A DNA stretch of 64,000 bases from assembly GCF_041435355.1 (NCBI RefSeq), contig NZ_CP108442.1, positions 62,001 to 126,000 on the forward strand, in the 5' to 3' direction. The position numbers and the translations under genes were made by a program. Shown here piece after piece: positions 5,932-36,500 of the stretch (the first letter of the stretch is position 1; every line of letters begins with the position of its first letter). The notes under the pieces were generated by a model that saw only the letters and a list, made by a program, of their open reading frames with translations, was not told where the DNA came from and did not search any database. The stretch is from Streptomyces sp. NBC_01276 (GTDB lineage Bacteria; Actinomycetota; Actinomycetes; Streptomycetales; Streptomycetaceae).

Positions 5932-6381
5932 TCAGCGTGTCTTCGGGAACGCCGCTCGCAGGGGCGCGCCGCGCGTCGTGAAGGCGATGCGGAGGACCGG
6001 GAGTACGCAGAGCGCCTGCACCGCCGCGTACCACCAGGGGCAGACGCCCGGGATCAGGTCGACGCCGACGACGGCGACCGGGAAGACGGCCGAGATGCCG
6101 CGCAGGCGCTCGAAGGCGCGTCGGGAGCCCCGGGAGGCGGAGAGGGCCAGGCGGTGGAGCAGCGCCGCGATGAGGGGGAGCAGGACCGCGCGGATCCACA
6201 TGAACGGGTTCACCATGTGGCCCGTGCTCGCCGCCGCGATGACCGCGAGGAGGGCGGCGGCGGTGAGAGCGCCGTAGACCTTGACGCCGACCCGGGTCGT
6301 GGCGAAGGCGTCCAGGGCGGCGGGGGTGTTGAGGAGGGCCGGGTCGGCGGTCGTGGTGTTCGCGTCGTTTTCCATGGCCAT
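5932..6381 (-). CDS. Small integral membrane protein, unknown function
   Basis: A 149-residue protein with three to four hydrophobic segments (around VYGALTAAALLAVIAA, FMWIRAVLLPLIAALL, ISAVFPVAVVGVDLI and WWYAAVQALCVLPVL) and a short acidic, Thr-rich N-terminus. I do not recognise a named family; such proteins are common hypotheticals in Streptomyces. The start could be either of two closely spaced ATGs (6381 or 6375), and neither has a clear ribosome-binding site. A longer frame up to 6426 adds an arginine-rich leader and seems less likely. The gene sits 53 bases upstream of the dehydrogenase gene on the same strand, but the operator between them suggests separate transcription. The upstream side is divergent from the histidine kinase gene. 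Confidence 0.6.
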   Translation of the reverse strand: MAMENDANTTTADPALLNTPAALDAFATTRVGVKVYGALTAAALLAVIAAASTGHMVNPFMWIRAVLLPLIAALLHRLALSASRGSRRAFERLRGISAVFPVAVVGVDLIPGVCPWWYAAVQALCVLPVLRIAFTTRGAPLRAAFPKTR

Positions 6382-6521
6382 GACGCTACGGAGCAGCCGT
6401 ACCGCGCGGTATCGGCCTGGCCCCACAGGGGGGTGGGGCCAGCCCCACTCCCCTGCCGGGCCGGGGCGTGGCGGGCTCCGGGCGGTGCACAGTGGGGGTG
6501 TCGAACGAGTGAGGGGGAGTC

Positions 6522-7775
6522 ATGGGACGGGTGGGTTCACGGGTGGTGGGGGCCGGGGCGGGGTTCGGGCGGACGTGTGCCGCCGCCGCCGTCTGCATGC
6601 CGGTGCCGGTGGTGTGGGCCGCCGCCGTGGGGTTGGGGGTGTGGTGCGGGGCGGAACACCCGTGGGCGTGGATCGGGCCGGCCGTGATCGTGTGCGCGGG
6701 CACGCTCGCGCCGGCGCGGACCGTCTGCCGGGCGGTCCGGTTCCTCGTCGCGCGGTGGACCGGCACCGACATCCCCGCCGGGTACCTGGAGGCCGGGCCG
6801 GTGATGCAGTTGTCCACGGGGTACTGGTGGAACGGCTTCAGCTACGAGCGCAGCCGCCGGGACGCCGTCATGGACCAGCGGATGCGGCTGTGGTGGAGCG
6901 ACCCCGCCACCTGGCGTGACCTCCGCTTCACCGTCGTCGCCCCGCTCACCGCGGGGGTGGTGGCCGCCCTGCCGCCGGCCTTGCTGGCCGTCGCCGTCCT
7001 CGGGTTCGCCCGGCCCGGAACCGCCGCGCGTCTCGTCGGGGCGGGCGCCCTGGTCCTGGCCGTCGGCTGCGGCCCGTACGCCTGGCGGTGCCTCGGCCCG
7101 GTGGCCGTCCGTTTCCTGCGGCCCTCACCCGCGATGGTGCTGGCGGAGCGGGTGGACGAGCTGACCTCCCAGCGGGCCGACGCCACCGTCGCGCAGGCCG
7201 CCGAGATCCGCCGCATCGAACGGGACCTCCACGACGGCGCTCAGGCCCGCCTCGTCGCCCTCGGGCTCTCCCTGGCCACCGCCGAAGCGCTCATGGACCG
7301 GGACCCCGAGCAGGCCAAGGCGCTGATGCGGGAAGCGCGGGCCGGCGCCGCCGCCTCGCTGACCGAACTCCGCGAACTCATACGGGGCATCAGCCCGCCC
7401 GTCCTGAGCGAACGGGGGCTCGTCGACGCCGTGCGCGCGCTCGCGCTGGACGTCCCCCTCGACGTGGCCGTCCGCGCCGGCGGCCCGCTGCGCCTGGACC
7501 CGCCGATCGAGTCCGCCGTCTACTTCGGCGTCGCGGAGCTCCTCACCAACGCGGTCAAGCACGCCGGAGCGGCCCGGGCGCACGTCTCCCTCGTACGGGA
7601 CGACACGGGCATCGTCGTGGAGGTCGAGGACGACGGCCGGGGCGGGGCCGACGCCCGGCCCGGTGGCGGGCTCGCCGGTCTGCGCCGCCGCCTGGCCGTC
7701 TTCGACGGCACGCTCGCGATCACCAGCCCCCAGGGCGGGCCGACGCGTGTGAGGATGGCCGTACCATGCGAATAG
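6522..7775 (+). CDS. NarL/DesK-type sensor histidine kinase
   Basis: A 417-residue sensor kinase. The N-terminal half holds hydrophobic segments (around residues 20-45 and 140-185) forming a membrane sensor without an obvious extracellular domain. A HisKA_3 dimerisation helix follows with the phosphoacceptor in ERDLHDGAQARLVALG (His237). The HATPase domain has an N-box ELLTNAVKHA and G-boxes DDGRGG and GGGLAGLRRR. The HDGAQARL form is typical of the HPK7 class paired with LuxR-type regulators. GTGAGGGGGA precedes the ATG. The gene overlaps its response regulator by ten bases, so the two are translationally coupled. The signal is unknown. It converges on the lanthipeptide transporter genes, and a link to that cluster is only positional. 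Confidence 0.9.
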   Translation: MGRVGSRVVGAGAGFGRTCAAAAVCMPVPVVWAAAVGLGVWCGAEHPWAWIGPAVIVCAGTLAPARTVCRAVRFLVARWTGTDIPAGYLEAGPVMQLSTGYWWNGFSYERSRRDAVMDQRMRLWWSDPATWRDLRFTVVAPLTAGVVAALPPALLAVAVLGFARPGTAARLVGAGALVLAVGCGPYAWRCLGPVAVRFLRPSPAMVLAERVDELTSQRADATVAQAAEIRRIERDLHDGAQARLVALGLSLATAEALMDRDPEQAKALMREARAGAAASLTELRELIRGISPPVLSERGLVDAVRALALDVPLDVAVRAGGPLRLDPPIESAVYFGVAELLTNAVKHAGAARAHVSLVRDDTGIVVEVEDDGRGGADARPGGGLAGLRRRLAVFDGTLAITSPQGGPTRVRMAVPCE

Positions 7776-8413
7776 TCGTAGCCGAAGACCTGTACCTCCT
7801 GCGCGATGGGCTGGTCCGCCTGATCGAGGCGTTCGGGCACGAGGTGGTGGCCACGGCCGCCACCGGGCCCGAGACGCTCGAAGCACTGCGGACGCACCAC
7901 CCGGACGTGTCCGTCATCGACGTCCGCATGCCTCCGACCCAGTCGGACGAGGGCCTGCGCGCGGCCCTCACCGCCCGCGCCGAAGTCCCCGGCCTGCCGG
8001 TCCTGATCCTCTCCCAGCACGTCGAGCAGCTGTACGCCCGCGAACTGCTGGCCGACGGCTCCGGCGGCGTCGGCTACCTCCTCAAGGAGAGCGTTTTCGA
8101 CGCCGACCAGTTCATCGGCTCCCTGGAGCGCGTGGCGCAGGGCGGCACCGCCATGGACCCGGCCGTGATCGCGAAGCTGCTGTCCGGCAGTGCCCCCGAC
8201 CGGGGGCTGGGGCGGCTCACCGAACGCGAGTACTCCGTGCTGGGCCTGATGGCCGAGGGTCTGTCCAACCACGCCATCGCGCGCCGCCTGTTCCTCAGCG
8301 AGGGCGCCATCAGCAAGTACACGACCTCCCTGTTCGGCAAACTCGGCGTCACGGACGACGACGACACCAACCGCCGCGTCCGCGCGGTCCTCACCTACCT
8401 CAACAAGCCCTGA
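7766..8413 (+). CDS. LuxR/NarL-family response regulator
   Basis: A 215-residue response regulator. The receiver domain starts MRIVVAEDLYLLRDGL with the acidic pocket (ED), the phosphoacceptor Asp52 in VIDVRMPP, and the conserved lysine in YLLKES. The C-terminal LuxR helix-turn-helix has LTEREYSVLGLMAEG, then ALSNHAIARRL-like residues and a recognition helix in SEGAISKYTTSLFGKLG. The start codon lies inside the kinase gene (ten-base overlap), so kinase and regulator form one unit. The DNA targets are unknown. The protein is complete and of normal length. The next gene downstream (lanthipeptide permease) is convergent, 19 bases from the stop. Confidence 0.9.
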   Translation: MRIVVAEDLYLLRDGLVRLIEAFGHEVVATAATGPETLEALRTHHPDVSVIDVRMPPTQSDEGLRAALTARAEVPGLPVLILSQHVEQLYARELLADGSGGVGYLLKESVFDADQFIGSLERVAQGGTAMDPAVIAKLLSGSAPDRGLGRLTEREYSVLGLMAEGLSNHAIARRLFLSEGAISKYTTSLFGKLGVTDDDDTNRRVRAVLTYLNKP

Positions 8414-8432
8414 ACGGGTTTTCCGGTCGGAG

Positions 8433-9314
8433 TCATTCGGGGCGGTTGAAGCGGTGGGCGGCCCAGAGCAGGGCCATGGCGCCGGTCGTCAGGAGGGTCG
8501 CCGCTTCGAGGAGGAGCGGAGGCTGTCGGCCGAACCATTCGAGGCCCGCCACGGCTGCCTGGTCGGGTACGCGGAGGGTGATGCTGCGCCGGAGCAGGTC
8601 CACTCCGTAGGCGAGCGGGTTGACGGCGGCCAGTGAACGGGCCCAGCCCGGCAGGTTCTCCAGTGGGAAGAAGCCGCCGGAGAGGAACAGCAGCGGCATC
8701 ATCACCAGGCCGAGCAGCATGTGGAACACCTCGGGGCGGCCCAGGGTCACGGCCAGGGCCAGGGAGAGGGCCGTGATGGCGAAGGAGGCCAGGACCATGC
8801 CGGCGAGGAGCAGCGCCAGGAGGAGCGGATCGTAGGGCAGGCCGACCGCTCCGGCCAGGGCGAGCAGGACCGCGCCCTGGACCGCGGCGACGGTGGTACC
8901 TCCGGCGCAGCTGCCCAGGAGGAGGGTGGAGCGGCGTACGGGGGCCATCAGCAGTTCGCGCAGGTAGCCGCTCTGGCGGTCGGTGATCAGGCGGATGCCG
9001 ACCATGATGGCCGGGGTCTGGACGGTCATCATCAGCATGCCGGGGAACAGGTAGGTCTGGTAGCCGACGCCGAGGGTGGAGTTGGGGATCAGGGCCGCCA
9101 GACCGCCTCCCAGGATGAAGAGGTAGAGCACCGGCTGGATCAGCATCAGGGCGGTGTGGGTGCGCTGGGTGGACAGGCGCAGCAGATCGCGGTGGACCAG
9201 TGCGTGGACGGCCCGCAGTTCACGGCGCAGGCGGGGCGGCGGTGGAGGGGCCGCGGTGTCGGGGCCGCCGGGGGTGTCCGGGGCTCCGGGCTTCTTGAGA
9301 GCGGGTGTGGTCAC
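8433..9314 (-). CDS. ABC-2 type permease of the class IV lanthipeptide cluster (LanH-like)
   Basis: A 293-residue DrrB-type permease with six predicted membrane segments. A proline-rich cytoplasmic N-terminus (about 40 residues) leads into RELRAVHALVHRDLLRLSTQ. The conserved ABC-2 region ITDRQSGYLRELLMAPVRRS lies before the third segment, and LFLSGGFFPLENLPGWARSL near the end. It forms the membrane part of a two-gene exporter with the ATPase encoded just upstream. Its GTG start overlaps the ATPase stop as GTGA, which indicates translational coupling. In the venezuelin cluster of S. venezuelae the equivalent gene is venH. Export of the mature lanthipeptide, or self-protection, is inferred from context; DrrAB-like pairs also export other drugs. 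Confidence 0.85.
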   Translation of the reverse strand: MTTPALKKPGAPDTPGGPDTAAPPPPPRLRRELRAVHALVHRDLLRLSTQRTHTALMLIQPVLYLFILGGGLAALIPNSTLGVGYQTYLFPGMLMMTVQTPAIMVGIRLITDRQSGYLRELLMAPVRRSTLLLGSCAGGTTVAAVQGAVLLALAGAVGLPYDPLLLALLLAGMVLASFAITALSLALAVTLGRPEVFHMLLGLVMMPLLFLSGGFFPLENLPGWARSLAAVNPLAYGVDLLRRSITLRVPDQAAVAGLEWFGRQPPLLLEAATLLTTGAMALLWAAHRFNRPE

Positions 9315-10423
9315 AGGCCCCCCTCGGTCGTCGCCGTGGTCGCGGTCGACTGGGTGGTGGCGGACGGTGTGGCGGGGCGTGCGGTGTGGATGCTGCGGCC
9401 GGTGTGGTGGAAGAAGACGTCGTCGAGTGTCGGCGGGGTCGCGGAGGCGGCCCGGACGGGGATGCCGTGGGCTTCCAGGGCCGCGCACAGGCGGGGGATC
9501 CAGGAGCTGCCGTTGGGGACGCGCAGGCTGATCCCCTCGGTGTCGAGGGTCGTGACGGTGCCCGGCGGGGCGGTCCGGCGTACGACGTGGTGCGCGGCCG
9601 GGTCGTCGCTGGTGCGCAGTACCACCCGGTCGTCGCCGATCGCGGCCTTGAGCGTGAGGGGGGTGCCCTGTGCCACCAGGAGGCCGCCGTCGATGATGGC
9701 GAGGCGATCGCAGTTCTCCGCCTCTTCCAGGTAGTGGGTGGTGACGAAGAGCGTGGTGCCCTGCCGGTCGCGCAGTGCGCGCAGGTGTTCCCAGACCTGG
9801 GCGCGGGCGTGGGGGTCGAGTCCGGTGGTCGGCTCGTCGAGGAACAGGATCCGGGGCTCGTGCAGCAGGCCGCGGGCGAGCTCCAGGCGTCGGCGCATGC
9901 CACCGGAGAGGGTGCGTACCGGGGAGCGTCGCCGGTCGGTCAGGCCGACCGCCTCGAGTGTCTCGGTGGCGCGGCGGCGGGCGTGGCGGCGGCTCATCCC
10001 GTAGAGACGGGCGTGGATGTGCAGGTTTTGTTCCGCCGTCAGGTCCGTGTCGAGGGCGCTGTGCTGGAAGAGCATGCCGACCTGTTGCCGCACCCGGTCG
10101 GGTTGGCCGAGCACGTCGGCGCCGGCCACCGTGGCCCGTCCGGCGGTGGGGCGGGCGAGGGCGCACAGGAGGGCGATGGTGGTGGATTTCCCCGCGCCGT
10201 TGGGGCCGAGGAAGGCGAAGGTTTCGCCTTGGCGGACGTCCAGGTCCAGGCCGCGGACGGCGTGGGTGGTGGTGCCGTCCGGCCCCGGGTAGCTCTTGAC
10301 CAGACCGCGTGTGCTGATGGCGTGCGCCGGCTCGGGAGCGGCCCCCGCGGTGTGCGGGCTCGTGGGGGCGGCCGTGAGGAGGGTTGCCTGGGCGGGCGTG
10401 TCGTCGCCGGCGTGTGGCTGCAT
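9311..10423 (-). CDS. ABC transporter ATPase of the class IV lanthipeptide cluster (LanT-like)
   Basis: A 370-residue DrrA-family ATPase. Walker A is GPNGAGKST (residues 73-81), the Q-loop lies near GMLFQHSALD, the signature is LSGGMRRRLELARGLL, Walker B is RILFLDEPTTGLD, and the H-loop is in FVTTHYLEEAE. The C-terminal 90 residues form the DUF4162-like extension usual in drug exporters, ending with an Ala/Thr-rich tail. The first 35 residues are low-complexity, so a later start is possible. No peptidase C39 domain is present, so leader removal is not done by this protein. It pairs with the downstream permease (GTGA overlap). Between it and the precursor gene are 274 bases with strong hairpins. 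The layout matches venT. Confidence 0.85.
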   Translation of the reverse strand: MQPHAGDDTPAQATLLTAAPTSPHTAGAAPEPAHAISTRGLVKSYPGPDGTTTHAVRGLDLDVRQGETFAFLGPNGAGKSTTIALLCALARPTAGRATVAGADVLGQPDRVRQQVGMLFQHSALDTDLTAEQNLHIHARLYGMSRRHARRRATETLEAVGLTDRRRSPVRTLSGGMRRRLELARGLLHEPRILFLDEPTTGLDPHARAQVWEHLRALRDRQGTTLFVTTHYLEEAENCDRLAIIDGGLLVAQGTPLTLKAAIGDDRVVLRTSDDPAAHHVVRRTAPPGTVTTLDTEGISLRVPNGSSWIPRLCAALEAHGIPVRAASATPPTLDDVFFHHTGRSIHTARPATPSATTQSTATTATTEGGL

Positions 10424-10434
10424 GGTCGGGTCCT

Positions 10435-10472
10435 CGTCTGCGGGGTGTCGTCTGCGGGGTGTCGTCTGCGGA
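10435..10472. repeat. 14-bp direct tandem repeat (2.7 copies)
   Basis: Unit CGTCTGCGGGGTGT, two exact copies and a partial third, just upstream of the ATPase start in the precursor-transporter gap. It may be a slippage product. No coding role is seen. Confidence 0.7.
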
Positions 10473-10503
10473 CTCGGGTGTGGGTGGGTGGGGCGGCTCG
10501 CGC

Positions 10504-10540
10504 TCCGGCCGGCGGCGCCGTGGGGCAGCCGCCGGCCGGA
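10504..10540 (-). terminator. Strong hairpin between precursor and transporter genes
   Basis: Perfect 13-base stem, TCCGGCCGGCGGC and GCCGCCGGCCGGA, around an 11-base loop. Lying after the precursor gene and before the ATPase gene, it is placed to terminate or attenuate transcription. No U-run follows. Confidence 0.6.
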
Positions 10541-10585
10541 GGTTTGTGGAGCCCGTTTCGTCTTGTCCCGTTCGGGTGTCGACCA

Positions 10586-10604
10586 GGGAGCACGGGGTGC
10601 TCCC
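10586..10604 (-). terminator. Second hairpin after precursor gene
   Basis: Perfect 8-base stem GGGAGCAC and GTGCTCCC with a three-base loop, about 95 bases past the precursor stop and upstream of the larger hairpin. Together they could limit read-through so that precursor transcripts exceed transporter transcripts. Confidence 0.55.
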
Positions 10605-10697
10605 TCCCGGCGGGGCCGGTGTTCAGCGCCTCGGCGACGAGACCGCCGTCGTCTCGGCTGCTGGGCGGTACCGGAGCCGAAGGGGCCTGGTGCCGGG

Positions 10698-10853
10698 TCA
10701 GTTACAGCTGATGCCCACGCAGACGGTGTTGAGGAGCGTCAGCAGGCCGACGCACTCGCAGGTGTTGGCGAACGCCACACCGTCGGCGCCGACGGGGTCG
10801 GTCTCCGGAAGGGCGTGCAGGTGAGCGAGCAGTTCGAGGTCGCGGTTCTCCAT
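10698..10853 (-). CDS. Class IV lanthipeptide precursor peptide (venezuelin-like LanA)
   Basis: A 51-residue precursor, short enough to be missed by ordinary gene calling. The leader opens MENRDLELLAH and continues to PETDP, acidic and helical as expected for recognition by LanL. The C-terminal core region has Thr31 followed by CECVGLLTLLNTVCVGISCN. Dehydratable residues are Thr31, Thr39, Thr43 and Ser49; cysteines are at 32, 34, 45 and 50, so up to four (methyl)lanthionines are possible. From memory the pattern closely resembles the venezuelin precursor of S. venezuelae. The ATG follows an excellent AAGGAGAA site. The gene lies 43 bases after lanL. No protease gene is nearby, so leader removal must come from elsewhere. 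Core boundary and ring pattern are not determined by the sequence. Confidence 0.9.
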   Translation of the reverse strand: MENRDLELLAHLHALPETDPVGADGVAFANTCECVGLLTLLNTVCVGISCN

Positions 10854-10896
10854 GGCTTTCTCCTTCTCTGTGAGATGGCGGCAGGTTCCCTGCCGC

Positions 10897-13569
10897 TCAA
10901 CCCGGCTGCTGGATCATCCAGTGCCGGGAGTCTGTGTGGCGGGTCCGCAGGAGGAACGCCAGGATTCCCGCGGATCCGTCGCTCCAGCCCGTCGAGACGT
11001 CCCCGTACTCGTTGGGGAAGACGACGTGGCCGTCGCGGTGGGCCCGTTCGGCGACGATGAGGCGGGCCAGGTCCTCGGCCGACGTGCGGTGGGCGGGATC
11101 CCCCGTGGCCGTGGCCATGTCGAGGAGGAAGTCGCCGTTGCCCGCCAGTCCGTGGCATTGGGTGAGGGGGGCGCGGGACGCCCGCTCCACGACGGCGCGT
11201 GCGGCGTTGCGGGCGAGATCGCCGAACCGGTCGTCGCCGGTGGTCTGCCACAGCCGGATCAGGAAGGAGCCGATTCCCGCCGAACCGTGGCACCAGTACG
11301 GGGCCGTGGGCACGTTTCCCGCCTGCGCCGGCCACTGGGCCGTCTCCCCGACCGTCAAGGCCGTGGCCACCAGCTCCTCCCCCGCCGCCAGGGCCAGGTC
11401 CAGGTGTTCCCGGCGGTTCGTGACGGCTGCGGCGGCGAGGAGGAAACATCCGATGCCGGACGTTCCGTGGGCGAAGCCGAGGTAGCGTTTGCCGGCTTCC
11501 TTGGAGACGGCTTCCGCAGGGACCGGCCAGCTCACGCCGGCCGGCTCGGGCCGGGCGGCGGCGGCCAGCCGGTCGGCCGCGTCGGCGACGAGTTCGGCGA
11601 GGCGCGGGGCGCCGGTGCGGTGCCACAGGTGGGCGGCGGCGAGTCCGCTGCCCGCGGAGCCGTGGGTGACGTCGTGACTGGGCGTCGGCTCCTGCGGAGC
11701 CAGGGCCAGGGCGAGCGCGTGGTCCATGAGCGTGCGGTCGTCGACGGCGCGGCCGGCGTCGTACAGGGCCCAGGCGGTCCCCCGGCCGCCGAAGTGCAGC
11801 CCGGGGCGCGTGGAGCGGGTGTCCGTCCGGGCCGCGATCCAGTGGCCCGCGGTGGAGATGGTTTCCGGCAGGCGCGGATCGCCGGTGAGCTCGAAGTACC
11901 GGGTCAGGACCGCCAGGACACCGGCCGCGCCCTGCTGCACGGTACAGGGGTCGGTCTCCCCCGCCATGGTGGAAACGGGCCACAGCCGCCTCTCGTCCCG
12001 GGGGGTCATCGAATCGAGGAGGTGTTCCACGATCCCCGCGACCGCGGCCGCCGTCGCGTCGTGCCCGGGGTCCTCGCCCGTCGGCCCGGCGGCGGGGTGC
12101 GCGGGGAGCGGCCTCGCGGTGCGGCGGAGGGCCGCGCGTGCTCTGGCCGGGTCCCAGCGCTCGGCCGGATCGTCCTTCATCAGCCCGAGGATCATCTCGG
12201 GCAGGCCGTCCGGCAGGCGGAGCGTACGTTCGCAGGCGGCCAGCCACTCGGCGAGCCGCTGCTCCGCGGATCTCGTGGCGGGCTCCTCGGGCAGCAGGTT
12301 GGGTATCTTCCCGGCGAGGACGAAGCACACGGTGGCGCCGAGGCTGTAGTAGTCGGCCGTCGGGGAGACGGGCGCGTCCGCCAGCCGCTCGGGGGCGCTG
12401 AAGCCCGGGGTTCCCACCGTCGTCGGGAGGGCGGCGTCGTCCTTCAGGACGGCGAGTTCCAGGTCGATGAGGCGCAGTTCACCGTCCGGCCGGACCATGA
12501 TGTTGGCGGGTGTGAAGTCCCGCAGGACGCAGCCGCAGGCGTGTGCCGCGGCGAGGAGGTCGACCAGGCGCCCGGTCTGGGCCAGGGCGTCGGTGCGATA
12601 GCGCTCGCTGCCGACGTCGCGGAAGTGCTCGGCGACCCAGTTCCGCAGGGGGACGCCCGGTATCTCCTCCTGTGCCAGGAACAGGTGTCCCCCGTGCTCG
12701 AACATCGCGAGGGGCTCCGGTGCCAGGCCCGTGCCGGTGAGGTTCCCCAGTGTCCGGGCCTCGGCGCGCAGCCAGTCGCGTACATCGCAGCCTGACGCGT
12801 CGGCCTCCACGTGCGGCCGCGCTTCCTTGATGACGACGGGTGCGCCCGTGGTGACGTCCGTCCCGCGGTAGACGCCGCCCTTGTTCGTGTGGCGTATCGC
12901 CTCCCGGACCGAGAAGCGGCCGCCGAGCAGCACCGGGCCCGGCGCCTCCTCCTCCGTACGCGGTGGGGCCGGCACCGATGCGGGGAAGGGGCTGACCGCC
13001 CAGGACGGCGGGGAATACTGTCCGGTGCGTATGTCCTCCACGGGGTTGCCGTCGGGGTCCTCGATGAACCACACGAGCAGTCCCTCGTCCGACAGTCGCC
13101 GCCTGCCCACGAAGGCGCCGTAGCGGTAGTGCACGAGGCTGTTCACGGCGTAGGGCTGGTCCGACAGGATCCGGGGGCCGGCCAGCCCCGCCGTGGCCTG
13201 GTGCAGCTCCAGCGCGATCCGGGCGGCGTCGGTGTCGGAGCGCGGGTAGACGGTGATGAACTTGCCCGAGCTTCCCCGTGGCGTGGCGCGGGAGTTGAGT
13301 GCGCTCACCTGTTCCAGGGACCGGGCGAACTTGAACGCCGACCGGTCTCGCAGCAGCACGTCCAGGGCCTTCGCGAGGACTGCCGGTGCTGAGGCGGACG
13401 TCGCCGACACGTGCAGTTTCCAGCCCTGCTGCTGCCGCGTCGCGGACAGGGGCGTAAGGCGGCACCACATCTCGTCCGCGTCGGTGCTCCAACGCGCGCC
13501 CTCACCGGTGGCGTCCAGCGCCCGGCGGAGCAGATCTTCGAGGTCGACTTCGGTTGCGTGGCTCGTCAT
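10897..13569 (-). CDS. Class IV lanthipeptide synthetase (LanL)
   Basis: A trifunctional synthetase of 890 residues that dehydrates Ser/Thr through phosphorylation and elimination and then forms thioether rings. In order: a lyase region (about residues 1-205); a Ser/Thr kinase domain (about 215-490) with Lys248 in VVIKEA, the catalytic loop RDFTPANIM (Asp351) and IDLELA in place of DFG; and a LanC-like cyclase domain (about 530-890). The cyclase keeps WCHG (Cys760) and CHG (Cys805-His806), the zinc ligands absent from class III enzymes, so this is class IV. Earlier HGSAGSG and HGTSGIG barrel motifs are also present. The ATG at 13569 has GAGAGGG just upstream; an in-frame TTG at 13584 is less likely. 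Gene order LanL-LanA-LanT-LanH matches the venezuelin cluster. Confidence 0.93.
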   Translation of the reverse strand: MTSHATEVDLEDLLRRALDATGEGARWSTDADEMWCRLTPLSATRQQQGWKLHVSATSASAPAVLAKALDVLLRDRSAFKFARSLEQVSALNSRATPRGSSGKFITVYPRSDTDAARIALELHQATAGLAGPRILSDQPYAVNSLVHYRYGAFVGRRRLSDEGLLVWFIEDPDGNPVEDIRTGQYSPPSWAVSPFPASVPAPPRTEEEAPGPVLLGGRFSVREAIRHTNKGGVYRGTDVTTGAPVVIKEARPHVEADASGCDVRDWLRAEARTLGNLTGTGLAPEPLAMFEHGGHLFLAQEEIPGVPLRNWVAEHFRDVGSERYRTDALAQTGRLVDLLAAAHACGCVLRDFTPANIMVRPDGELRLIDLELAVLKDDAALPTTVGTPGFSAPERLADAPVSPTADYYSLGATVCFVLAGKIPNLLPEEPATRSAEQRLAEWLAACERTLRLPDGLPEMILGLMKDDPAERWDPARARAALRRTARPLPAHPAAGPTGEDPGHDATAAAVAGIVEHLLDSMTPRDERRLWPVSTMAGETDPCTVQQGAAGVLAVLTRYFELTGDPRLPETISTAGHWIAARTDTRSTRPGLHFGGRGTAWALYDAGRAVDDRTLMDHALALALAPQEPTPSHDVTHGSAGSGLAAAHLWHRTGAPRLAELVADAADRLAAAARPEPAGVSWPVPAEAVSKEAGKRYLGFAHGTSGIGCFLLAAAAVTNRREHLDLALAAGEELVATALTVGETAQWPAQAGNVPTAPYWCHGSAGIGSFLIRLWQTTGDDRFGDLARNAARAVVERASRAPLTQCHGLAGNGDFLLDMATATGDPAHRTSAEDLARLIVAERAHRDGHVVFPNEYGDVSTGWSDGSAGILAFLLRTRHTDSRHWMIQQPG

Positions 13570-14331
13570 GCCTGTCCCTCTCAACGGCGAGGACCGCTGG
13601 TTGGAATATGCCTTCGGTAAGAAGAACGTATAGCCGTGGCCGGATGGACGTCAGTCGGTTCGGCGAGCGCACGGTGTTGTTGCGCTGCCGAGTGGTGTCA
13701 ACCGGCGCATAAAAGAAGTACGCGGGAGCGCATGGGGTGGCGATACCTCCTGCACCCCATGGGCGGCACACCGGAGATCACTCCACCTCCAGGGAATGAA
13801 AGCAGTGGGTTTTATTCACTCTGAATTCTGCATGGACCACAGGGGCTGCGGATGTGAAATCCGGGGCGACCGTAAACGGGTACACCATTTCCGGTACCGC
13901 CGTGAAGGTCTTCACGCGCGACGGCCACCAGCGCCGCCCTCGGCTCCACCACCAGGCACTCCTCGGTTTCGGTCCGAGCTCCGCATTCAACACGAAAGGT
14001 TTTTCCGGTCGCGCTGAACGCTATCGGCGCGGCACTTACGCCGTACAGCTTTCCTCCCACTCCGCCCGCAGTAAAGGTCCGATCCCGCCACGGCGCCTAC
14101 CTGCTGCGCGGCAGGATTCGACGCGTCAACGCGATGCGCGATCACGCCCCTGAGCTGTGCGCGGGCTCGAAGGTTGAAGAATTAACCATCGCCGAACTGC
14201 TGCTCGGGATCGACTGAAAAGCAAACTGGGGTTCTCTTGCCGCCACGGGCACCCGGATGTCGACAAATGTGATCCGAGGGAATGCAGCGCCGGATGGGAA
14301 GCGAGTACACGGAACGGCACACCCGGAGTTC
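13570..14331. other. Long AT-richer intergenic region without a supported gene
   Basis: About 760 bases between lanL and the TetR remnant, visibly less GC-rich than the surroundings. Short frames exist on both strands but none has Streptomyces-like codon bias or recognisable motifs. A frame ending at 14218 (VEELTIAELLLGID, then stop) looks protein-like but has no credible start and may be the tail of a lost gene. The lanL promoter should lie in the first 150-200 bases; I cannot place its boxes with confidence. Confidence 0.45.
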
Positions 14332-14478
14332 GAGCGGGACCCGGTCCCGGCGGCCGGTCCCGCACAGCGGGCGATGCCGTCGAGGCGGGCGTCCGGGCCG
14401 TGGCGCGAAGGCCTCGCGGGTGGCCTCGACGAGCCGTTCGCGGCTGCGTCGCGCGTCGCGCCGTACGGGGACCGCCAT
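14332..14478 (-). pseudogene. TetR-family regulator remnant (frameshifted, truncated)
   Basis: From the ATG at 14478 the frame reads MAVPVRRDARRSRERLVEAT, then REAFA, the classic first helix of a TetR DNA-binding domain. It then loses frame near 14403-14408. In the next frame it continues RHGPDARLDGIARCAGPAAG, the second and third helices, before homology ends near 14332. A two-base loss at the junction explains the frame change. The turn expected after GTxYRHF is not recognisable, and there is no ligand-binding domain. The gene is divergent from the phospholipase gene and the palindromic operators between them survive, so it was probably the local repressor and the phospholipase may now be derepressed. 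Confidence 0.65.
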
Positions 14479-14503
14479 CGCCACCCTCCACTTCGCCGAC
14501 GAA

Positions 14504-14572
14504 TTAACCGGGGAGCAGTCCCCGATTTGCATGCTATGGTCGGCACAGAAGCGGGGAGCATTCCCCGGTTAA
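14504..14572 (+). promoter_or_regulatory. Paired palindromic operators upstream of the phospholipase gene
   Basis: Two near-identical palindromes: CGGGGA-GCAG-TCCCCG at 14509-14524 and CGGGGA-GCAT-TCCCCG at 14552-14567. The outer flanks (TTAAC before the first, GTTAA after the second) mirror each other, making the whole 69-base region a larger inverted repeat. TTGCAT between them could be a -35 element. The style is typical of TetR-family operators, and the adjacent TetR gene is broken. Confidence 0.75.
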
Positions 14573-14593
14573 CTTCCCGGAGGGACGCGGACC

Positions 14594-15433
14594 ATGACGG
14601 ACACGGCTTTGGTACTGGGCGGCGGCGGAGCGGTCGGGCTCGCCTGGACCGTCGGGGTACTCGCGGGCCTGGCCGAGGCGGGCCTGGATCTCTCCGGTGC
14701 CGACGTGACGATCGGCACCTCGGCGGGCTCGGTGATCGGCGCCCGGCTCGCCTCGGGCGTGACGGCCGAGGAGATGTACGAGGAGAACCTCGCCGGGGCC
14801 CCCGCGCTCGACGTCACCGTCACCCTGGGCCAGACCGCCCGCTTCCTGTGGGCCGCGCTCGGATCACGTGACCCGGAGCGCTCCGTCCAGCGCCTCGGCC
14901 GGGCCGCGCTGGCCGCCCGTACCGCCCCCGAGTCGGCCGTCCACGGCGCGGTCGCCACGCTCCTGGAGGGTGTACGGGAATGGCCCGCCCGCGATCTGCG
15001 CCTGACTGCCGTCGACGCCCGGTCCGGAGCCCTGGAGGTCTTCGACGCGACCTCGGGCGTCACCCTGCCCGAGGCCGTGGCGGCGAGCTGCGCGGTACCC
15101 GTGGTCTGGCCGCCGGTATCGGTGGCCGGCCGCCGCTGGATGGACGGCGGCAGCCGCTCGACGGCCAACGTCCAGCTCGCCCGCGGCCATCGGCGGGTCG
15201 TCGCCATCGCCCCGATCCCGAAGGCGGTCGGTCCGCACCCGAGCGCGACCGAACAGGGCGCGGAACTCGCCGCGGGCGGGGCCTCGGTGGCCGTACTCAC
15301 CCCCGACCGCGCCTCGCGCGCGGCGTTCGGCCGCAACATGCTCGACCAGAGCCGCCGGGGTGCCGCCGCCCGTGCGGGCCGCGTCCAGGCCGCCTCGTAC
15401 GTGGACACCGTACGCGCGGTCTGGAAGCCCTGA
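14594..15433 (+). CDS. Patatin-like phospholipase
   Basis: A 279-residue alpha/beta hydrolase of the patatin family, which hydrolyses acyl esters with a Ser-Asp dyad. The glycine-rich oxyanion loop is at residues 9-12 (LGGGGAVGLAW), the nucleophile is Ser43 in GTSAG, and Asp184 is in the DGG motif (WMDGGSRS). All elements are present and the length fits the short bacterial forms. There is no signal peptide, so it is presumably cytosolic. CGGAGGGACG upstream of the ATG is a good ribosome-binding site. Paired TetR-type operators lie directly upstream, and the remnant of a divergent TetR gene is next door. The natural substrate is unknown. Confidence 0.9.
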   Translation: MTDTALVLGGGGAVGLAWTVGVLAGLAEAGLDLSGADVTIGTSAGSVIGARLASGVTAEEMYEENLAGAPALDVTVTLGQTARFLWAALGSRDPERSVQRLGRAALAARTAPESAVHGAVATLLEGVREWPARDLRLTAVDARSGALEVFDATSGVTLPEAVAASCAVPVVWPPVSVAGRRWMDGGSRSTANVQLARGHRRVVAIAPIPKAVGPHPSATEQGAELAAGGASVAVLTPDRASRAAFGRNMLDQSRRGAAARAGRVQAASYVDTVRAVWKP

Positions 15434-15535
15434 GTCCACCGGTCGGCATCGCCGCCGGCCGGGCACGTCCGTCCCACAGTTCGCACCAGCACGCGGGGAG
15501 CGCCGCATCCGGGCGCGCCCGGAACCGAGGAGACC

Positions 15536-32728: not shown

Positions 32729-33514
32729 TCAGGGAGTGACGGACGTGCGGAGGTGGTCCGCCATGGTGCGGACCACCTCGGCCTGGTCGCGTACCAGGTA
32801 GAAGTGCCCCCGGGAGAAGACCCGCAGGGTGAACGGGCCTTCGGTGTGCGCGGCCCAGGCCGCCGCCTCCGCCGGGGTCACCTTCGGGTCCTCGCTGCCG
32901 ATCATGGCGACCAGGGGGCAGTTCAACGGCTCCCCCGGCGCGGGGGCGTAGGTTTCAGCGGCCCGGTAGTCGGCGCGGATGGCCGGGAGGATCATCCGGA
33001 GCACCTCCTCGTCCCCGAGCAGCTGTGTGTCGGTGCCGCTGAGGATCTTGACCTCATCGATCAGGCCCCGGTCGTCGAGCAGGTGCACGGTCTCGTGCCG
33101 GAGTGCCGAGGGAGCCCGGCGCCCGGAGGCGAAGAGCGCCGCCGCGACGACGCCCTTCTCGCGCTCGAAACGGCTCGCCACCTCGTAGGCCACCGAGGCG
33201 CCCATGCTGTGGCCGAAGAACGCCAACGGCCGGTCGGCCCAGGGCAGCAGTGCGGTGAACACCCGGTCGGCGAGTTCCGGGACGTTGTCGATGAGGGGCT
33301 CGGCCCGACGGTCCTGGCGGCCGGGGTACTGGACGCACAGGACGTCGGCGAAGTCCGGCATGTTCCGGGCCAGGGGGAGGTAGAAGCTCGCGGAGCCGCC
33401 GGCGTGCGGCAGGCAGACCAGCCGGACCCCGGCGTCCGGCCTCGGCTGGAACCGGCGTATCCACAGGCTGTTGTCGGTCGGGGTGGAGGTGGAGGTGCGG
33501 GCGGGGGTGCTCAT
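32729..33514 (-). CDS. Type II thioesterase of the polyketide cluster
   Basis: A 261-residue alpha/beta hydrolase that removes aberrant acyl groups from carrier proteins. The nucleophile is Ser103 in GHSMG, with Asp209 in GSEDPKVTP and His237 in SRGHFYLV completing the triad. The start WIRRFQPRPDAGVRLVCLPH, then AGGSASFY, is the family signature. The substrates are probably stalled malonyl- or acetyl-ACP on the three synthases encoded upstream; this is family knowledge. The gene begins 47 bases after the last PKS gene on the same strand and is likely co-transcribed. The ATG at 33514 precedes STPARTSTSTPTDN, a short disordered leader. Confidence 0.93.
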   Translation of the reverse strand: MSTPARTSTSTPTDNSLWIRRFQPRPDAGVRLVCLPHAGGSASFYLPLARNMPDFADVLCVQYPGRQDRRAEPLIDNVPELADRVFTALLPWADRPLAFFGHSMGASVAYEVASRFEREKGVVAAALFASGRRAPSALRHETVHLLDDRGLIDEVKILSGTDTQLLGDEEVLRMILPAIRADYRAAETYAPAPGEPLNCPLVAMIGSEDPKVTPAEAAAWAAHTEGPFTLRVFSRGHFYLVRDQAEVVRTMADHLRTSVTP

Positions 33515-33561
33515 GGTGTGGCGTGATTCCCTTCGGGTGGGCGGGTGCGGGCGGTGGAGGG

Positions 33562-36500
33562 TCAGGACAGCTTGAGGACCCATTCGTCGACCGCGGTCGC
33601 CGTGGACGGTGCGTGCCGTTCCATCAGCGTGTAGTGGTCGCCGGGTACTTCGGTGACCTGCTGGGCGTGTCCGGGCGCGGGCGGCCGGTCGTCGGTCCCT
33701 TCCTCGCCGTCCGCCACGCGGTCCTCGGCGCGGACGACCAGCGTGGGCGCCTTCGCCACCGGGGCGTCCCAGTCCTCGAAGAGGGCGAGGTAGCCGCCCA
33801 TCGCGGTGAGCTGGGTACCGGGTGCGGAGATGAAGTCGAAGCGCTCCGACTGTTCCCGTACCACCGCCGACTGGAAACGGTCGGCCATGCCCTGGTCGCG
33901 GGTGAAGCTGTCCAGCATCACGATGCCTTCGACGGGCCGGCCCAGCTCCTCCAGCCGGCAGGCCACGGCGTGCGCGACCCAGCCCCCCGAGGAGTAGCCG
34001 ACGAGCACCACGGGCTCCTCGCCCGCGCAGTCGGCGACGGCCCGGACGTGCACCTCGACGAGGGCGGCTACGTCCCGCGGCAGCGCCTCCCCCGGGCCGA
34101 AGCCCGGCTCGGGCAGGGCCCAGACGGTGCGCCGACCGCCGAACGCGGCCGCGAAGCGGGCGTACTGGTGGACCCCGGAGGGGGCCATGTACGGGCCGAA
34201 GCAGATCAGCTGCGGCCCTTCGTCCCCGTGTGCCAGCCGGACCGGGACCGGACCGTGGTCGGCGGCCGACTCGGCGTCGAAGACCGGTCGCAGCCGGGCC
34301 GCGGCGGTGAGCATCCCGATGCCCTCGGAGAGCCTGCCCAGTTCACCGGCCCGGCGGTAGAGGCCGACGAGCAGGTCGTCCTGCTCGTCGCGCGCGGCCG
34401 GTCCGGCTCCGCGGGACCCGCCGGAGGCCTCCGCCAGGAGGGCCAGGAGCCGGGTGGTCACCGCCGCGGGGGTGGGGTGGTCGAAGACCAGGGTGCTGGG
34501 CAGTTTGAGGCCCGTGGCCCGGCCGAGCCGCTTCGCGAGGCGGACGGCGGTCAGCGAGTCGAAACCGAGTTCCAGGAAGACGTGCCGTTCCCGTACGGCG
34601 TCGGCGGACGGGTGGCCGAGTACGGCCGCGGCCTCGGAGCGTACGAATTCCAGCGCGGCCGCGTCGCGTTCGGTGGCGGGCAGGCCCGTCAGCCGGCGTA
34701 CGAGGAGGGGTTCGCCGTCGGACCCCGCGTCCGCGCCGGTCTCCTCGGCGGCCAGCAGGCGGGCCACCTCGGGCAGGCCGCCGAGCAGCGGGCTCGGCCG
34801 GGCGGCGGTGAACCCGGGCAGGAAGCGCTTCCAGTCCACGTCGGCGACGATCACCGAGGTGTCCCCGTGTTCGACCGCGCGGCGCAGGGCCAGTACGGCG
34901 AGTGCGGGGTCCATCGGGTCCAGGCCGCGCAGCCTCAGCCGTTCCTCGGCGGCCCGGTCGACCATGCCGCCGCCGCCCCAGGCGCCCCAGGCGATGGAGG
35001 TGGCGGTCAGGCCGCGCGCCCGCCGGTGTTCGGCGAGGGCGTCGAGGGAGGCGTTCGCCGCCGCGTAGGCGGACTGGGCGCCGCTTCCCCAGGCGGCGGC
35101 GCCTGAGGAGAACAGGACGAAGGCGTCCAGTTCGCGGTCGCCCAGCAGCGCGTCGAGGTGGGCCGCGCCGGCGGCCTTGGCACCCAGCACGTCGGCGGCC
35201 TCGGCCACGGTGGTGTCGGCGAGCAGGGCGGGCGTGCCGATGCCGGCGGCGTGGACCACGGCGCTGAGCGGCGGCAGGTCGGCGAGCGAGTCCAGGAGGG
35301 CGGACACCGCCGTCCGGTCGGCCATGTCGCAGGCGGCGAGCGTCACGCGGGCGCCCAGTGCCTCCAGTTCGGCGCGCAGCTCGTCGGCGCCGTCGGCCGC
35401 GGGGCCGCGACGGCTGGTCAGCACCAGGTGCTCGGCGCCGGCGGTCGCCAGCCAGTGGGCGACGCGGCTCCCGATGAAGCCGGTGCCGCCGGTGACCAGT
35501 ACGGTGCCGCGCGGCTGCCAGCCGGGCCCGGCGGGGGTGTCGGTGCCGGTGGCGCGGAGCATCCGGCGGGCGTGGGCGCCGTCGGCGCGGACGGCGATCT
35601 GGTCCTCTCCGGTGGCTCCGCCGAGGGCGGCGGCCAGCCGGCGTCCGGTGCCCGTGTCCGTGGCCCGTACGTCGGCGGGCAGGTCCACGAGGCCGCCCCA
35701 GCGTCCGGGGTGTTCCAGGGCCACGACCCGGCCCAGCGCCGCCACCGTCGCCTGGGGTACGGCGCGGAGGGGGTCGGCGGGCCCGGTGGACACGGCGCCC
35801 CGGGTCACGCACCACAGGGGCGCGTCGACGTCGGCGTCGCCGAGCGCCTGTACGAGGAGCAGGGTGGTGGCGAGGCCTAGCGGGACGGCCGGGTGGCCGG
35901 GGTGGGCCTGGTCCGCGAGGGCGAGCAGGGACAGGACCCCTCGTGCGCCGGCGCCCGCTTCCCGCAGCGTGTCGGCGAGGGTGTGGCGGTCCTCGTCGCC
36001 GGTGACGGCCAGCCGGACGGTGTCGGCGCCGTGTGCGGCGAGGGAGTCGAGCGCCAGCTGCACGGCGGGGTCTTCGAGCCGGTCCCGGGGGACGAGCGCG
36101 AGCCAGCGTCCGGTGAGGGCGGGCGGGGCCGTGTCGGGGACCGGCTTCCAGCCGATCCGGTAGCGCCAGGCCCGGGTCGCGGCCTCGTCGCGGCGGCCGC
36201 GGTGCCAGGCGCGCAGTGCCGGGAGCGCGGTGGCGAGGGTGGTGTCCTCGTCGAAGCGCAGCTCCTCGGCGAGGGAGGTCAGATCCTCGCGTTCCACGGC
36301 CGCCCAGAACTCGGCGTCCGCGGCGGACTGCGGCGCCGGTGCCGTCTGTGCCGCGGTGTCGGGCGCGTCGAGCCAGTACCGCTGTCGCTGGAAGGGGTAG
36401 GTGGGCAGTTCGGCCGGGGTGCCCGCGGGGGCGCCGAACACCGCGGTCCAGTCGACCGGGACGCCGTGCGCGTGCGCCTCGCCCAGGGAGGCGAGGAAGC

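Follow-up and report, generated by a model that had tools for sequence, protein, structure and literature searches.

A complete venezuelin-type class IV lanthipeptide cluster in Streptomyces, with predicted conserved hairpins on both sides of its precursor gene

The venezuelin cluster of Streptomyces venezuelae consists of venL, venA, venT (ATPase) and venH (permease), and the partly available text of the paper describing it names no protease and no regulator (PMC2843593). According to the same text, VenA undergoes four dehydrations and acquires the rings C32-T43, C34-T39, C45-S49 and C50-T31, and its cleavage after PFA29 was inferred because this sequence resembles an AFA site. In S. venezuelae, deleting venA or venL left growth, morphology and the screened activity unaffected; no product was detected, and a strong promoter before venL had been tried (PMC2843593, in part). 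A zinc motif separates class IV from class III synthetases (PMC10676316, PMC12328550, both in part), and 815 class IV clusters have been reported (PMC7268733, in part).

The four genes and the class of the synthetase

The window, that is, the whole stretch of 64,000 nucleotides of Streptomyces sp. NBC_01276 DNA that was analysed, contains on the minus strand, at 8433–13569, a lanL gene, a lanA gene of the VenA family and genes for an ABC ATPase and an ABC permease, all with open frames:

10897–13569, minus strand: lanL, class IV lanthionine synthetase (predicted lyase, kinase and zinc cyclase), 890 aa
10698–10853, minus strand: lanA, VenA-family precursor, 51 aa; NF038147 match
9311–10423, minus strand: ABC transporter ATPase in the position of venT, 370 aa; PF00005, TIGR01188
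8433–9314, minus strand: ABC-2 permease in the position of venH, 293 aa; PF01061

LanA matched the VenA family model NF038147 at 96 bits (cut-off 35). The ATPase matched PF00005 at 119.1 bits and the DrrA-like model TIGR01188 at 317.3 bits (cut-off 312.45), the permease matched PF01061 at 106.3 bits, and the two transporter genes share a four-base overlap. The four genes include neither a protease gene nor a regulator gene. The original prediction of four minus-strand genes for LanL, a 51-residue precursor, an ATPase and a permease was thus confirmed at these coordinates, and the venezuelin gene order that it proposed was borne out against venL-venA-venT-venH (PMC2843593, in part). A broken LanL frame was looked for, and the frame is unbroken in this assembly; with four open frames and the expected domains and residues present, the cluster is complete, as had been claimed.

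LanL carries PF25816 (RamC_N), PF00069 (Pkinase) and PF05147 (LANC_like), in that order, in one chain. This domain order is identical in class III (LanKC) enzymes, for which LanL could be mistaken, and LanL does score 534.2 bits on the class III LanKC model of the NCBIfam profiles. That value, however, is under the cut-off of 575 and less than half of the 1240.9 bits obtained with the class IV model NF038150 (cut-off 650), so that the profile check did not place LanL in class III. By contrast, a true class III synthetase encoded in the same genome (L077 3440–5983) scored the reverse, 908.9 bits for class III and 380.2 for class IV. The zinc ligands led to the same division. LanL contains the motifs PYWCHGSAG (C760) and LTQCHGLAG (C805, H806), and these three residues are C, C and H in all 43 LanL proteins compared (42 kin loci and the window; L046 was excluded, its frame being broken), whereas the class III synthetase just mentioned has G, F and P opposite them. 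Both marks of a class III LanKC enzyme, a profile score above cut-off and a cyclase without zinc ligands, are therefore absent from LanL, and the class III reading was rejected on profile scores, zinc ligands and the own-genome control; it retains practically no probability. The assignment to class IV from WCHG and CHG ligands, already made in the original prediction, rests on motifs that are real and kept in 43 of 43 proteins. LanL is a class IV synthetase, with zinc ligands predicted from its residues.

Residues K248, D351, N356 and D369 of the kinase domain and K80, K103, T106, Y108 and R149 of the N-terminal domain are likewise identical in 43 of 43 LanL proteins; their roles we take to be those generally assumed in the field. 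Combined, these findings make it almost certain in our view that the four genes form a complete venezuelin-type cluster of class IV, working as proposed in the last section for LanL, the rings and export.

The class III synthetase gene of the same genome belongs to a region of contig C3 (L077 3440–6490) where, behind the LanKC gene, three or more small precursor-like frames lie in tandem, beginning MSILNLQQLE or MSILSLQQLQ.

Kin loci, precursor constraint and cluster boundaries

A search for related precursors gave 62 proteins, the best 98% identical to the window's, and VenA proteins of Actinomadura and Pseudonocardiaceae were among them. Within the genus, a VenA-family precursor was present in 31 of 295 genomes, own genome included (32 matches, 30 of which became loci); among 396 phylum-wide genomes, the single match was the window's own. 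The genome collection yielded 43 kin loci, 41 of which hold the four genes in order on one strand. No transporter match lies beside lanA in L031 (after 10888), and no permease match in L006 (after 4486). An earlier claim of rarity stands for characterised products, which are few; it does not stand for the clusters, which are common, both in the genus (31 of 295 genomes) and in the 815 of PMC7268733 (in part). The cluster is one more member of a known, common type, and represents a further near-copy in a family whose product is rarely seen.

The genome G271 (L080, L081) contains a duplicated 3.4-kb segment with LanL and LanA, at 99.8% identity. In one copy LanL is matched piecewise; related transporter genes are found after the other copy only.

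The ring residues of LanA are T31, C32, C34, T39, T43, C45, S49 and C50. Among 49 distinct precursor genes of 51 residues (out of 60 distinct genes, other lengths being excluded), seven of the eight never vary, and the eighth, position 49, is S in 48 genes and T in one; T also replaces S49 in L022/L073 and L031, whose precursors are of the excluded lengths. Eleven of the 21 core positions (31–51) and 13 of the 30 leader positions never change, and at 21 of these 24 invariant positions more than one codon is in use. Position 33 is free to vary, other core changes are mostly V/I or L/V/I, and rarer ones are to T at 35, Q at 37, T at 49 and S or N at 51. Kin loci were fetched by similarity to the window LanL or to the VenA model, which biases conservation upward, so that the constraint on the peptide may be overstated. 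The near-fixed core suggests a single conserved target, which it fits better than an arms race or diversification. LanA carries AFA at 27–29, after which the leader is perhaps cleaved, by analogy; we treat this site as a lead, since A29 occurs in just 29 of the 49 precursors.

An intact cluster may nevertheless be silent or decaying, with no peptide made. This is conceivable for the window because no venezuelin was detected from its host, S. venezuelae, and deletion of venA or venL was without effect (PMC2843593, in part), and copies do decay, as the fragmented LanL of L046 and of one of the two G271 copies shows. Against this, the four frames of the window are open, the core is under strong constraint among kin, and the upstream motifs and both hairpins described below are kept. 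We consider a silent cluster unlikely.

On the permease side, a two-component pair on the plus strand (kinase 6522–7775, regulator 7766–8413) converges on the end of the cluster. It directly adjoins the permease gene and could thereby belong to the cluster and regulate it, yet its matches in the 43 kin loci are only distant. For the kinase, the best were 31–34% over 202–244 residues in three loci; for the regulator, 31–33% over 83–219 residues in three loci and 49% over 45 residues in one. Such matches occur in five loci altogether, and absence is less sure in the three of the 41 full-order loci that hold less than 3 kb beyond the permease. The ven cluster, as far as the available text of PMC2843593 describes it, is also without a regulator. 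Membership of the pair was rejected and regulation by it is very improbable; the boundary claimed here is upheld, its position being confirmed and the pair having no close relative in kin loci. A patatin gene at 14594–15433 (plus strand) was also rejected as a member, being matched in one of the 43 kin loci (L037). Distant matches for the pair and a single one for the patatin gene thus place both outside the cluster.

On the lanL side, an intergenic desert had been claimed. This holds in part: of the open reading frames there, the one tested (14142–14561, upstream of lanL) gave no Pfam match, but in the approximately 140 bases preceding lanL there are motifs that recur in kin:

13570–13709, minus strand: conserved region before lanL, from 43 aligned upstream regions, window included

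Here, TGCGCCGG...GTGCGCTCG is found at 13664–13709 and CCAGCGGT..CCGTTGAGAGGGA beside the lanL start. The upstream motif pair occurs once in the window. Because the motifs TGCGCCGG, GTGCGCTCG and CCGTTGAGAGGGA recur upstream of kin lanL genes, the gap probably holds a promoter and leader. A hairpin near the lanL start, H0, is only suggestive as a conserved element: 93.3% of its cells are paired, and its five doubly changed cells were equalled or exceeded in 4 of 500 shuffles, but only two of its seven pairs are doubly changed, a number reached in 50 of 500, and the fold z is −1.2.

Farther upstream, the start of the translation of a minus-strand stretch at about 14126–14491, divergent from the patatin gene and overlapping the frame at 14142–14561, resembles by eye a TetR regulator, a likeness that is soon lost. 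Elsewhere in the window, three very long minus-strand open reading frames (33562–63964; 3389, 3760 and 2947 aa) were noticed. Of these, the first alone was scanned: it encodes modular type I polyketide synthase domains and, close to its end, a thioesterase domain. A separate thioesterase gene lies at 32729–33583.

Hairpins on either side of lanA

Judged from aligned sequences, lanA is bracketed by two conserved predicted hairpins with compensatory changes:

10878–10896, minus strand: hairpin H1, GCGGCAGG-GAA-CCTGCCGC, immediately downstream of the lanL stop, 24 nt ahead of the lanA start
10503–10541, minus strand: hairpin H2, with a 14-bp outer stem, CTCCGGCCGG...CCGGCCGGAG, 156 nt after the lanA stop

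The loci sampled for hairpins were those of Streptomyces only. As high G+C makes stems easy to form, the two could be without specific role, H1 being chance pairing of G+C-rich sequence and H2 an ordinary terminator. Several results for H1 are in line with this. Where it ranks first among the stems of a locus, up to 8 of 50 single-locus shuffles reached its score, and in L004 and L042 it was outscored by a different stem (12 and 28 of 50 shuffles as good). In the window, the fold of 10876–10899 gave a z of −4.2, and the wider fold of 10857–10920 a z of only −2.0, with 9 of 200 shuffles as good. The alignment of H1 argues otherwise. It consisted of 58 of 59 distinct upstream pieces (L030, with a miscalled lanA start, was excluded), taken by position, and 97.0% of the cells of the seven-pair stem were paired, as compared to 25–64% when the partner was slid. 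Four of the seven pairs show changes on both sides, and the 20 doubly changed cells compare with 5.9 (s.d. 1.9) in shuffles; relatedness alone, in the absence of structure, can put sequences above every shuffle, but it is retained in the slid control. At least six of the seven pairs form in 56 of the 58 rows, 21–35 nt before the lanA start. G-U pairs are present in H1 and make RNA a likelier reading than a DNA operator.

The stem of H1 goes with lanA more than with the end of lanL, as indicated by the six loci with a long gap between these genes, in all of which the stem near lanA is intact. Just after the lanL stop, five of them offer four to six pairs, and L045 has an eight-pair stem of other sequence. 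Two exceptions exist, L026 and L063, in which the stem has kept its place by the lanL stop and lies 74 and 55 nt from lanA, respectively. The 3′ end of lanL is partly duplicated in the gap before lanA in L020 and L039, above shuffles; such duplication was discarded as the cause of the long gaps, being above shuffles in these two and not in L025, L029, L045 or L046.

H2 folds at −39.9 kcal/mol, with a z of −5.8. In an alignment of 50 of the 58 rows (48 distinct), 13 of its 16 pairs have changes on both sides, and 60 doubly changed cells were counted versus 17.9 in shuffles; the rows were picked as best stems, so that pairing is partly built in and shared sequence is not. L027, L033 and L043 have a recognizable H2 that was left unaligned, and L023, L039, L050, L063 and L075 have none. 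H2 starts 4–22 nt past the lanA stop in 40 of the 50 rows, 52 nt past it in L011, 196 nt in L065, and 138–158 nt in eight rows (window, L004, L008, L016, L018, L037, L072 and L074). No T tract lies behind H2, and the scan calls no intrinsic terminator there, in contrast to what an ordinary terminator would predict. A third stem between lanA and H2 gave a z of −1.7.

The exact patterns of H1 and H2 occur once each in the genome, and backward control patterns four times and once; because the controls match as often or more, genome-wide uniqueness was withdrawn as evidence, and our confidence in a role for the hairpins was reduced a little on this account. Weighing the selection of H2 rows and the shuffle results against the slid control, the doubly changed cells and the missing T tract, we find it doubtful that the hairpins have no specific role. 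Since substrate must outnumber enzyme and yet lanL comes first, H1 and H2 may instead set the amount of precursor apart from that of enzyme and transporter. Their use may lie in protecting or releasing a short lanA transcript or, alternatively, in letting few polymerases pass to the transporter genes. We tentatively propose, with somewhat less than even confidence, that in venezuelin-type clusters the lanA message is separately stabilized by two co-varying hairpins and outlasts or outnumbers the lanL and transporter messages. For class IV this was not reported in the literature searched, a coverage that takes in few subscription papers, and a term search of the available text of PMC2843593 found no hairpins around lanA; window positions 6000–15500 gave no Rfam match to the hairpins up to an E of 1. 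If separate stabilization is true, a strong promoter before lanL may fail to yield product, because the lanA segment may need RNA processing of its own.

Comparison with known systems

The cluster in the window shares with that of venezuelin the gene order, the enzyme class, a 51-residue precursor and the lack of a protease or regulator gene (PMC2843593, in part). All eight ring positions of VenA are matched by LanA in the same numbering, which makes the four-ring topology transferable. Within the VenA residues given in the available text, LanA differs in having AFA-N at 27–30 in place of PFA-A, and N51 in place of A51 (PMC2843593, in part). The reaction steps and ring pattern proposed for the window peptide are transferred by analogy from VenL and VenA. 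LanL would bind the LanA leader, its kinase domain would phosphorylate core Ser/Thr and its N-terminal lyase domain would eliminate the phosphate. Ring closure by the zinc cyclase, through addition of the four Cys thiols, would then yield C32-T43, C34-T39, C45-S49 and C50-T31. For the peptide with four waters lost, the calculated monoisotopic M is 2196.020 with cleavage before N30 and 2081.977 with cleavage before T31. Export would fall to the two-gene ABC transporter, and a protease encoded elsewhere may remove the leader, perhaps after AFA (27–29).

Streptocollin and globisporin (SgbA/SgbL) are venezuelin-like or class IV according to the available text of two reviews (PMC10676316, PMC12328550), and are likened to the window by description only. 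The closest named kin is Streptomyces lavendulae CCM 3239 (L037), with identities to the window of 93% for LanL, 96% for LanA, 92% for the ATPase and 94% for the permease. As in the window, a patatin gene lies beside its cluster, H2 stands at +156 and the precursor ends in N51; this precursor differs from that of the window in having F6 and D33.
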